Below are positions 41,451-51,300 of a stretch of 64,000 bases of DNA, one piece after another. Numbering within the stretch: position 1 is the stretch's first letter; every line of letters begins with the position of its first letter. This DNA comes from Paracoccus sp. C2R09 (lineage in GTDB: Bacteria; Pseudomonadota; Alphaproteobacteria; Rhodobacterales; Rhodobacteraceae), in the NCBI RefSeq assembly GCF_018860625.1, contig NZ_JAHKQB010000019.1, forward strand, positions 47,702-111,701, in the 5' to 3' direction. Under the pieces are notes generated by a model. It was not told where the DNA came from. It made no database searches and saw only the letters and a list, made by a program, of their open reading frames with translations. Made by a program: the position numbers and the translations under genes.

Positions 41451-41560
41451 GGCCGGGCCTCCTGATGGCTCCAATACGGTTATGCCCCCGTGGGCGCGAC
41501 GCGCTGACGGGGGGCGATCCCCGCGCCATGCGGGGACCGGAAGGGTGGCCTTCCGGGAAT
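41451..41560 (-). promoter_or_regulatory. Structured 5' leader of the ffh operon
   Basis: About 110 bases from the predicted transcription start to the ffh ATG. Read on the minus strand it holds two short GC hairpins: CCGGAAGG/CCTTCCGG (about 41541-41560) and CCCCGC/GCGGGG (about 41519-41536), with no T-run. No coding frame with a ribosome site. Function unknown; the operon encodes four ribosomal or ribosome-maturation genes, so leader control is possible. Confidence 0.4.
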
Positions 41561-50130: not shown

Positions 50131-50199
50131 GACGCATCCCCTGTCCGTGACATGTCGGGATCAATGTGGATGCGGGTTTTCGGTTCCGGAAATGAGAAA

Positions 50200-50235
50200 G
50201 CGGCGACACCCAGGGAGGAGGAGGGGTGTCGCCGC
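50200..50235 (-). ncRNA. CcsR-type hairpin 1 (terminal copy, also terminator-like)
   Basis: Perfect 12-bp stem: GCGGCGACACCC (50200-50211) with GGGTGTCGCCGC (50224-50235). On the transcribed strand the stem is followed by CTTTCTCATTT, so this last hairpin probably also ends transcription of the array. Confidence 0.85.
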
Positions 50236-50236
50236 C

Positions 50237-50270
50237 GAACGCTGGCCCAGGGAGGAGGAGGGGCCGCGTA
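50237..50270 (-). ncRNA. CcsR-type hairpin 2
   Basis: GGCCC (50244-50248) pairs with GGGCC (50261-50265); loop holds the motif. Near-identical to hairpin 6. Confidence 0.8.
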
Positions 50271-50275
50271 GTGTT

Positions 50276-50310
50276 GCGGTGCTGGCCAGGGAGGAGGAGG
50301 GCCACACCGC
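50276..50310 (-). ncRNA. CcsR-type hairpin 3
   Basis: Two-part stem: GCGGTG (50276-50281) with CACCGC (50305-50310), and GGCC (50284-50287) with GGCC (50300-50303). Homologous to hairpin 7. Confidence 0.83.
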
Positions 50311-50312
50311 TT

Positions 50313-50350
50313 GCGCAAGGTCCGGGAGGGAGGAGGAGAGGACCCAGCGC
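50313..50350 (-). ncRNA. CcsR-type hairpin 4
   Basis: Outer GCGC (50313-50316) with GCGC (50347-50350), inner GGTCC (50319-50323) with GGACC (50340-50344). Homologous to hairpin 8. Confidence 0.83.
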
Positions 50351-50355
50351 AATTC

Positions 50356-50379
50356 GGTTGCCGCGAATGGGGCGGCTAT
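50356..50379 (-). repeat. Inter-block spacer hairpin, copy 1
   Basis: 24 bases identical to 50545-50568. GCCGC (50360-50364) pairs with GCGGC (50372-50376); no CCTCCTCCC motif. It separates four-hairpin blocks and could be a processing signal. Confidence 0.6.
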
Positions 50380-50385
50380 CTAGGC

Positions 50386-50422
50386 GCGGCGACACCCAGG
50401 GAGGAGGAGAGGGTGCCGCCGC
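50386..50422 (-). ncRNA. CcsR-type hairpin 5
   Basis: Same arms as hairpin 1 with one A-C mismatch: left arm 50386-50397, right arm 50411-50422. Starts the duplicated block, 186 bases from hairpin 1. Confidence 0.83.
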
Positions 50423-50427
50423 TGAAC

Positions 50428-50456
50428 GCTGGCCCAGGGAGGAGGAGGGGCCGCGT
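50428..50456 (-). ncRNA. CcsR-type hairpin 6
   Basis: GGCCC (50431-50435) pairs with GGGCC (50448-50452). Near-identical to hairpin 2. Confidence 0.8.
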
Positions 50457-50463
50457 ATGGGGT

Positions 50464-50500
50464 GCGGTTCGGCCCAGGGAGGAGGAGAGGGCTTCACCGC
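50464..50500 (-). ncRNA. CcsR-type hairpin 7
   Basis: GCGGT (50464-50468) with ACCGC (50496-50500) and an inner GCCC (50472-50475) with GGGC. Homologous to hairpin 3, with arm changes that keep pairing. Confidence 0.8.
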
Positions 50501-50503
50501 GTA

Positions 50504-50540
50504 GCGCGGGTCCGGGAGGGAGGAGGAGAGGACCCGGCGC
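50504..50540 (-). ncRNA. CcsR-type hairpin 8
   Basis: GGGTCC (50508-50513) with GGACCC (50530-50535), extended by GCGC (50504-50507) with GCGC (50537-50540). Homologous to hairpin 4. Confidence 0.83.
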
Positions 50541-50544
50541 ATAA

Positions 50545-50568
50545 GGTTGCCGCGAATGGGGCGGCTAT
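50545..50568 (-). repeat. Inter-block spacer hairpin, copy 2
   Basis: Identical 24 bases to the spacer at 50356-50379, again just beyond a block of four hairpins. Confidence 0.6.
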
Positions 50569-50574
50569 GAGGTC

Positions 50575-50610
50575 GCGGCGGTCCCGAGGGAGGAGGAGTG
50601 GGACCGCCGC
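50575..50610 (-). ncRNA. CcsR-type hairpin 9
   Basis: Perfect 11-bp stem: 50575-50585 with 50600-50610 (GCGGCGGTCCC / GGGACCGCCGC). Belongs to the divergent block next to the DUF1127 gene. Confidence 0.87.
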
Positions 50611-50615
50611 TGCTG

Positions 50616-50652
50616 GCGCGAAACCCCTAAGGGAGGAGGGGGGTTCCGTCGC
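50616..50652 (-). ncRNA. CcsR-type hairpin 10
   Basis: AACCCC (50622-50627) with GGGGTT (50640-50645), weaker outer CG pairs. The loop copy reads GGGAGGAGGGGG, so the motif is extended by G. Confidence 0.8.
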
Positions 50653-50660
50653 GTCTTATA

Positions 50661-50698
50661 GGCGGCATCTCCGAGGGAGGAGGAGTGGAGATGCCGCC
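50661..50698 (-). ncRNA. CcsR-type hairpin 11
   Basis: Perfect 12-bp stem: GGCGGCATCTCC (50661-50672) with GGAGATGCCGCC (50687-50698). Arm sequence is unlike the other copies, good evidence that pairing and not sequence is selected. Confidence 0.88.
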
Positions 50699-50702
50699 GA
50701 TC

Positions 50703-50729
50703 CCGACCCAGGGAGGAGGAGAGGGTCGG
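50703..50729 (-). ncRNA. CcsR-type hairpin 12 (first transcribed)
   Basis: CCGACCC (50703-50709) with GGGTCGG (50723-50729). It is 11 bases past the DUF1127 stop, so the first RNA would be cut directly from the mRNA end. Confidence 0.85.
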
Positions 50730-50740
50730 TAGAGGAATTC

Positions 50741-50965
50741 TTATTTCTTGCCCCAGGCGGCTTCGTGGGCCAGACGGGTGATCATCGAGCGGTTGATGCC
50801 CAGATCGGCAAGGTCGCGGTTGGTCAGCGCGTTCAGTTCGCGGACCGTCTGCTTGTAAACGGCACGGCGGGCGCGGTTTTCCTGCATGCGCAGGATCGCG
50901 TTCTGCAGGCGGCCGGTCAGGCCGGTTGCGGCGACGGCGTTTTGCGTTTGAGCGATAGCAGCCAT
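50741..50965 (-). CDS. DUF1127 small protein, host gene of the CcsR array (CcaF1-like)
   Basis: 74 residues from ATG 50965 (AAGGA upstream). The C-terminal R-E-L-N-A-L-T-N-R-D-L-A-D-L-G-I-N-R-S-M-I is the DUF1127 (YjiS) signature; the N-terminal part is Ala/Gln-rich and basic. Rhodobacter's counterpart is cotranscribed with CcsR RNAs under stress sigma factors and is reported to bind RNA and affect their processing; that role is carried over by analogy. Basic composition (many K, R) fits RNA binding. Confidence 0.88.
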   Translation of the reverse strand: MAAIAQTQNAVAATGLTGRLQNAILRMQENRARRAVYKQTVRELNALTNRDLADLGINRSMITRLAHEAAWGKK

Positions 50966-51300
50966 GTTCGTTTCCTTTCGGTTCATCCTTCGCACCGTCC
51001 CCGGATTGGTCCGGCGCTGCGTTGAGATGAAGATGGCGCTAACCGCATCGATTCACAACGCACGCTTTGGGAATGCTGCCATGCAGCAAATGCATGACTG
51101 AAGCTGACCTATCGTTAGCTTGTGTGATGAAATGCTGTCACAAAATTGATACGACACATTCGTTAACGGTAACGGAATCGCCCCGAAAACCCAATGTTCC
51201 AAGGCGGTTGCGGAGGGTCTTCGGACAGCCTGACGCAGCCCATTGAGATGCCCCGCGCGATGCGTCATGCTGCGCGCGTTCTTACGAAAGGCTGCCGCTC
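50966..51300. other. Divergent control region between the DUF1127 gene and mrp
   Basis: 335 bases without a gene, clearly AT-richer than the flanks from about 51045 to 51180. It should hold promoters for both directions. Only one pair of hexamers stood out (51030-51058, minus strand). No RNA gene recognised. Confidence 0.6.
51030..51058 (-). promoter_or_regulatory. Tentative stress (RpoH-like) promoter of the DUF1127-CcsR transcript
   Basis: Minus strand TTGTGA (51053-51058), 17 bases, CATCTT (51030-51035), about 65 bases ahead of the ATG. The Rhodobacter counterpart is transcribed by RpoHI/RpoHII; the match here is loose. Confidence 0.3.

Follow-up and report, generated by a model that had tools for sequence, protein, structure and literature searches.

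What is an array of twelve hairpins, all of which present the same loop, doing directly behind a small DUF1127 gene, and of how many RNAs does it consist? The locus lies in a 64 kb stretch of DNA, hereafter the window, in which an earlier note had picked out twelve minus-strand hairpins with CCTCCTCCC in the loop, had likened them to the CcsR or "cuckoo" small RNAs of Rhodobacter and had spoken of an expanded array. Our preferred answer, to which we give a probability of roughly 0.78, is that the DUF1127 gene and six tandem CcsR/cuckoo double hairpins would form one stress-induced transcript, likely cut into small RNAs that would occlude Shine-Dalgarno (SD) sequences, with predicted solute-binding targets. 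The gene order, the six units, the compensatory stem changes, the invariant loops and the conserved upstream box and core can all be read directly from the sequences compared here.

The hairpin array and its setting

The plus strand carries twelve exact copies of GGGAGGAGG, which is CCTCCTCCC on the minus strand, and all of them fall within the array region 50200-50729 (Table 1). Outside the array the exact motif is absent from the 64 kb window (shuffled windows: mean 1.03, maximum 4), and copies with one mismatch are not enriched over the whole window (21 against 27.7 expected), so that what stands out is the exact motif and the way its copies cluster. The minimum-energy fold of the region places every one of the twelve motifs in a hairpin loop which, together with the exact-motif search, bears out the twelve hairpins behind the DUF1127 gene; when the motif is held unpaired, the stems comprise 7-13 pairs. 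The earlier note had further remarked that the arms differ yet keep their pairing. This also holds: in the window, an arm folded with its own partner averages -19.7 kcal/mol, against -10.7 kcal/mol with an arm from another hairpin, and the modelled pairs described below carry compensatory changes. We extended the comparison to 108 arrays, namely the window, loci L039-L068 and those of L069-L148 with at least two motifs, a set in which some genomes occur twice (L059/L127, L050/L132). Here at least six pairs enclose the motif in 894 of 898 cases, and own arms again outdo swapped ones (-19.5 against -10.1 kcal/mol over 764 distinct arm pairs). Within the window's genome the paired-motif pattern is found at this place only, and the reversed control pattern gave no match (0). 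Long mechanical open reading frames cross the array on both strands, yet the motif spacings of 36-71 nt argue against a protein-coding reading, which we rejected; only 3 of 11 spacings are multiples of three, and spacings shift between relatives.

The host genus is Paracoccus, and Paracoccus species also supply the best named relatives of the upstream protein (identity up to 82%), most of them followed by arrays. The DUF1127 setting was described correctly in the earlier note: a gene with a PF06568 match adjoins the array directly upstream on the same strand. Downstream, again on the same strand, lie a Hva1_TUDOR gene, an RlmJ gene, a DivIC gene and genes for pyruvate dehydrogenase-type E1, of which the beta-subunit ORF was assigned without a family scan. 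A DUF1127 gene is present in 54 of 59 fetched loci, and the first motif stands 16-26 nt past its stop codon in 43 of these 54. The locus of P. zeaxanthinifaciens ATCC 21588 (L085) has twelve hairpins at spacings nearly those of the window.

Some Paracoccus genomes have two or three DUF1127 loci, most of them with arrays of their own, some short (2-4 hairpins). Such loci are L069, L072 and L086 in P. acridae, L070, L080 and L097 in P. benzoatiresistens, and, in further genomes, L071 and L105, L073 and L083, L078 and L081, L075 and L079, and L087 and L115. At two of them, L097 and L115, no exact motif occurs within the fetched stretch.

Table 1. Features of the locus, in window coordinates and, apart from the first row, in order of transcription
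Feature	Position	Strand	Details
GGGAGGAGG, twelve exact copies	50213, 50250, 50289, 50328, 50399, 50437, 50477, 50518, 50588, 50631, 50675, 50711	+	
Conserved box TGCATTTGCTGCATGGCAGCATT	51072..51094	-	contains TGCA-N6-GCAT
Candidate promoter core TTGTGA-N17-CATCTT	51030..51058	-	RpoH-like -10; conserved among relatives
DUF1127 gene, alternative upstream start	50741..50995	-	in-frame GTG, 84 aa
DUF1127 (CcaF1-type) gene	50741..50965	-	74 aa; ATG behind GAAAGGAAACGAAC; Pfam PF06568, E 3.5e-12
Double hairpin 1	50661..50733	-	hairpins 50703-50729 and 50661-50698; model R1 57.1 bits, E 9e-08
Double hairpin 2	50574..50652	-	hairpins 50616-50652 and 50575-50610; R1 50.1 bits at 50574-50650
Spacer between blocks	50541..50566	-	motif-less hairpin GCCGC...GCGGC; from fold, linker
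Double hairpin 3	50463..50540	-	hairpins 50504-50540 and 50464-50500; R1 33.6 bits, E 5.4e-04; weakest unit
Double hairpin 4	50385..50459	-	hairpins 50426-50456 and 50386-50422; R1 60.1 bits
Second spacer	50353..50377	-	motif-less hairpin; from fold, linker
Double hairpin 5	50275..50352	-	hairpins 50311-50352 and 50276-50310; R1 48.1 bits at 50275-50351
Double hairpin 6	50199..50272	-	hairpins 50239-50269 and 50199-50236; R1 68.6 bits, E 1.2e-09
U-rich tail after hairpin 12	50187..50198	-	6 T in 12 nt; candidate transcript end

The double hairpin as the repeating unit

Linker lengths give the array its rhythm. In transcription order they measure 4, 8, 5, 34, 3, 7, 3, 33, 0, 6 and 2 nt, and GCGG or GGCGG opens all six even-numbered hairpins and no odd one (in hairpins 7 and 11 GCGG starts after two bases). 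The same pattern runs through the 108 arrays, where 534 of 682 pairs of adjacent linkers switch between short and long (1000 shuffles gave 364 on average and 401 at most) and where a GCGG-type arm is found in 298 of 458 hairpins after linkers of up to 5 nt, against 38 of 207 after linkers longer than 15 nt.

A covariance model, R1, was trained on 45 double hairpins from loci outside Paracoccus, taken from 92 listed ones with at most three listed per locus; 26 belong to named records, not one of which bears a Paracoccus label, and the remaining 19 were drawn from further genera of the family; the set included three units each from Cereibacter johrii and from locus L143. In the window R1 finds exactly six units, all on the minus strand and with E-values between 1.2e-09 and 5.4e-04, and the next match has an E-value of 0.27. 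A sequence-only model built from the same alignment recovers the same six units with 12.7-21.4 bits less apiece; pairing therefore adds to the R1 score, and sequence alone still locates the units. In C. johrii R1 gives four strong units, three of them used in training, and a fifth, weak match (27.8 bits), and on the two motif-less DUF1127 loci (L097, L115) it gives no match. Changes on both sides occur in 16 of 16 modelled pairs, with a covariation of 0.555 against 0.245 in shuffles (none of 500 reaches 0.555) and no more than 0.169 in slid controls, in a test that somewhat favours the R1 structure since this was derived from the same alignment. The earlier note had wavered between six and twelve RNAs. 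Given the linker alternation and the six in-register matches, the count of six double-hairpin RNAs stands and that of twelve independent RNAs is ruled out.

Array size and growth

To call this array expanded is true only in comparison with the eight-hairpin locus of C. johrii, as twelve hairpins are common in Paracoccus. The number of hairpins per array ranges from 2 to 26; exactly twelve are found in 15 of 108 arrays, P. denitrificans DSM 413 (L133) among them, and at least twelve in 21, with arrays of 14, 16 and 26. These counts rule out an exceptional expansion. The largest array seen, at L049 (Rhodobacteraceae, G193), has 26 hairpins, much of the array being a tandem three-hairpin repeat. 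At least one motif pair occurs in 196 of 296 sampled genomes of the family, the window's own included, and in 27 of 36 other genomes of the genus. The pattern search undercounts: of ten Paracoccus genomes without a pattern match, nine from the 36-genome genus survey and one from the 296-genome family survey, three still carry motifs beside DUF1127.

How did the array reach its size? Between hairpins 5-8 and hairpins 9-12 the identity is 86.9%, and these blocks are 91.6% and 93.0% identical to their counterparts in P. zeaxanthinifaciens. Judged from these identities, the array likely grew through duplication of a four-hairpin block (5-8, 9-12), and because the copies match that species' counterparts better than each other, the duplication is likely older than the split from P. 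zeaxanthinifaciens.

Relation to known families

At gathering cut-offs Rfam returned no match in the array. Below the CcsR1 (RF02791) cut-off of 65.3 bits, a 1 kb search gave 46.7, 42.6 and 40.3 bits for double hairpins 2, 6 and 4 and 18.3 bits (E 0.11) for double hairpin 3; double hairpins 1 and 5 do not appear among the matches listed. The ar14 model (RF02344) reached 54.2 bits over hairpins 1-3 and 49.6 bits over hairpins 9-11, missing its cut-off of 58.8, and scored 61.6 bits once in P. denitrificans (L133); 6C, an unrelated C-rich family, also matched weakly (at most 32 bits, E 0.039). As a stand-in for R. sphaeroides we used C. johrii (L147), which we take to be closely related to it. 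Its eight hairpins form four pairs, which fits the four published CcsR RNAs, and we treated this locus as the CcsR1-4 counterpart. One of its units passes the CcsR1 cut-off (106.2 bits) and the others score 46.6, 43.6 and 39.4 bits, a range (39.4-46.6) like that of three window units (40.3-46.7). With only one C. johrii unit above it, the cut-off is narrow, and this partly accounts for the window's failure to reach it.

The structural-model check proposed in the earlier note did not refute its reading: our own R1 scores all six units, and the Rfam models score only below their curated cut-offs. The CcsR/cuckoo identity itself was supported by the double hairpins, the CCUCCUCCC loops, the DUF1127 setting and the sub-cut-off Rfam scores resembling those of C. 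johrii. The array has the invariant loop and compensating stems of the cuckoo superfamily and, in six units, the two adjacent hairpins, each with a CCUCCUCCC loop, of CcsR; RS0680a is likewise described, in passages of PMC3927594, as two stem loops with the motif in each. Like CcsR1-4 and CcaF1 of R. sphaeroides, the locus sets tandem double hairpins directly after a DUF1127 gene, with shorter linkers within units than between them. Unlike CcsR1-4 it has six units instead of four and Rfam scores under the cut-off, and its pairs are arranged in blocks of four hairpins, with 6-8 nt between pairs and spacer hairpins only between blocks. With rhizobial ar14/NfeR1 (SmelA075, SmelA099; RF02344), as portrayed in passages of PMC3927594 and PMC10746234, it shares identical loops, several hairpins and variable stems, and passages of the latter also give a TGCA-N6-GCAT promoter box, which the window has too. 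These rhizobial RNAs differ from the window in having three or four hairpins and in being separate trans-acting sRNAs, and the passages concerned (PMC3927594, PMC10746234) describe no DUF1127 gene ahead of them. DUF1127 proteins are associated with CcsR-like RNAs in the "cuckoo" family/CIN1 locus, according to part of PMC10253847, and the window also joins the two.

Another likeness is to AbcR1/2, which are sRNAs with (partial) anti-SD loops against transporter mRNAs, AbcR1 being activated by LsrB/VtlR. To our knowledge AbcR1/2 are not tandem hairpin arrays. The cuckoo members treated by Reinkensmeier and Giegerich in 2015 reportedly have 2-4 hairpins each. The kind, the loop and the setting of the array are already published; for Paracoccus, the searchable open literature yielded no report of CcsR, cuckoo or DUF1127 sRNAs.

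Our analysis fixes the double hairpin as the unit of the family, countable with a covariance model, and extends CcsR arrays to Paracoccus, among them P. denitrificans, a species used in the laboratory. It also indicates that CcsR arrays can escape annotation, given that the RF02791 gathering cut-off in Rfam 15 (65.3 bits) fits one copy only and excludes three of the four C. johrii double hairpins.

Promoter region and transcript end

Upstream of the DUF1127 gene the box TGCATTTGCTGCATGGCAGCATT lies 36 bp upstream of the TTGTGA-N17-CATCTT core, a candidate promoter core whose label as RpoH-like presumes the usual RpoH consensus. We compared 107 upstream regions of at most about 330 nt each, which come from related and repeated species, some with uncertain gene starts (L121/L122 excluded). 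The core pattern is present in 88 of them and the box form TGC-N7-GCATGG in 67; where box and core occur together, in 61 regions, they are spaced by 36 or 37 bp in all 61. TGCA-N6-GCAT, located in the box, the core or both, is found in 89 of the 107 regions against 0.45 expected from shuffles, a figure that overstates independence because the patterns were drafted on the same related sequences and shuffles ignore kinship. Inside the core, TGCA-N6-GCA is found in 66 of 107.

In S. meliloti, TGCA-N6-GCAT is the LsrB site of NfeR1, as stated in passages of PMC10746234, and this element of LsrB/VtlR regulon promoters is present in the window. The Brucella/Agrobacterium box form GCAT-N3-TG-N3-T, taken from part of PMC7486931, is absent from the window's box when the two are compared by eye, and a 2025 study carries the section title "LsrB is a LTTR unique to Rhizobiales" (PMC11975290, in part). 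An identification of the upstream factor as LsrB was set aside: no LysR-type ORF beside trxB, and so no trxB-lysR pair, was recognised by eye in the 3.9 kb trxB locus L169. A search of the open literature found no report of CcsR with a LysR promoter in Rhodobacter. Elsewhere in the genome (G000), the box core TGCTGCATGGCAGCA has a second exact copy at about 1501-1515 of L149 on contig C1, upstream of a 75-aa ORF that has no Pfam match, though it looks DUF1127-like by eye.

A sigma-70 promoter scan of the locus gave no hit, nor did a strict terminator scan at the array end. Among the 108 arrays, 52 have a U-rich tail after the last hairpin; of 790 internal hairpins, 6 are followed by such a tail.

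Predicted targets

The genome has 60 sites with the pattern GGAGGAG-N3-10-ATG, against 9 for the reversed control. We read 56 of the 60, setting aside three that lie in the array and one that overlaps; 39 have ORFs of at least 100 aa, and 14 of these look like genes for periplasmic solute-binding proteins, in agreement with Pfam tallies (first 25 of 54 families). As a strong-SD control we used AGGAGGT, for which 36 of 39 sites were read (three shared with the GGAGGAG set were omitted) and 17 had ORFs of at least 100 aa; solute-binding proteins account for 3 of these 17 and for 14 of the 39 above, an excess that lacks statistical significance (p 0.22). The targets are predicted to lean to periplasmic solute-binding-protein mRNAs, and it may be that solute-binding genes just favour such SDs.

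Pairing with the loop can be compared gene by gene, with the start codon of each gene set by the best 16S anti-SD pairing. Loop pairing below -15 kcal/mol was found for 9 of 16 DctP start regions, 0 of 21 DctM start regions (p 9e-05; DctM being an imperfect control because its starts are weaker SDs overall) and 1 of 40 window genes, the latter being crude longest-ORF calls. For DctM, 21 of 23 matches were scored, the second pieces of split matches (L313, L314) being omitted. DctP starts average -15.1 kcal/mol with the loop against -11.2 with the 16S anti-SD; the corresponding values for DctM are -8.7 and -9.3. Many of the 16 DctP genes of G000 share a start signal of the GGGAGGA/GGAGGAG type, closer to the cuckoo loop than to the 16S anti-SD.

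No co-evolution of the array with loop-complementary start sites was seen: the two do not co-vary across 38 Paracoccus genomes (ratio 1.32 in 7 without a detected array against 1.13 in 31 with one, p 0.30). The neighbouring pdh genes were likewise dismissed as cis targets, their pairing being moderate only (-11.9 kcal/mol at the pdhA start, and -14.1 kcal/mol). The pdhA start is the target expected from Rhodobacter physiology, and that it pairs only moderately counts against our best explanation.

Proposed mechanism and alternatives

For R. sphaeroides, co-transcription of ccaF1 and CcsR1-4 from an RpoHI/HII promoter, maturation by RNase E and CcaF1, and Hfq dependence are reported in PMC10253847, PMC8307010, PMC8625941 and PMC7866481; in S. 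meliloti, NfeR1 silences ntrB together with two ABC-transporter mRNAs by means of its anti-SD loops (PMC10746234). By analogy with these systems, stress induction, RNase E processing, Hfq binding and target silencing would apply to the present locus as well. The DUF1127 gene and the array would be made as a single stress-induced transcript, which would likely be cut into six CcsR-type RNAs, as by RNase E in Rhodobacter. The CCUCCUCCC loops would then pair with SD sequences and block ribosome binding and translation, more units meaning a higher loop dosage, and because the predicted targets lean to solute-binding-protein mRNAs, the effect of the array under stress would be a reduced uptake of nutrients.

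A broader proposal, which we regard as doubtful, holds that cuckoo arrays throughout the Rhodobacteraceae could be the tunable-dosage output of a joint RpoH and LysR-type redox promoter, with 2-26 hairpins acting as a brake on periplasmic uptake whose strength evolution sets through unit number; here an activator site, TGCA-N6-GCAT, whose distance to the heat-shock core is constant at 36-37 bp, would drive the operon. If the target and promoter predictions are true, rhizobial NfeR1/AbcR and Rhodobacter CcsR would be parts of a single stress circuit acting to reduce solute uptake, and the natural variation in unit number would offer a ready dosage experiment.

Could the loops act in another way, or not act at all? 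They might serve as a decoy or sponge, binding a shared protein (DUF1127/CcaF1 or Hfq) or blocking ribosomes generally, so that specific mRNAs matter little. Such a role would sit well with invariant loops on drifting stems and with a unit number that varies freely between 2 and 26 hairpins, and in Rhodobacter the related array shares its locus with the gene of an RNA-binding DUF1127 protein (passages of PMC10253847). However, identical loops silence named mRNAs in S. meliloti (passages of PMC10746234) and DctP starts are more complementary to the loop than to the 16S anti-SD, and we consider a sponge unlikely. More improbable still is a purely local role, in which the array stabilises the DUF1127 mRNA or buffers its processing as a 3' UTR and the loops do nothing in trans: while the array does begin directly past the stop codon and end in a hairpin with a U-rich tail, stem stability alone leaves the invariant nine-base loop unexplained, and the rhizobial members are separate sRNAs with trans targets (PMC3927594, PMC10746234).

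That the array is a functionless repeat, REP-like or expanded by slippage, is hardly credible. The 86.9% identity of blocks 5-8 and 9-12 implies that tandem duplication does occur; against this stand the compensatory changes in every modelled pair, the conserved place behind DUF1127 and the single occurrence of the paired motif in the genome, and it is on the covariation that we rejected this reading, which is strongly disfavoured. Processed anti-SD RNAs with predicted solute-binding targets remain our preferred account of the locus.

At some distance from the array, Rfam also matches its "ffh" sRNA family in the window, at 41477-41528 on the minus strand, with 60 bits.
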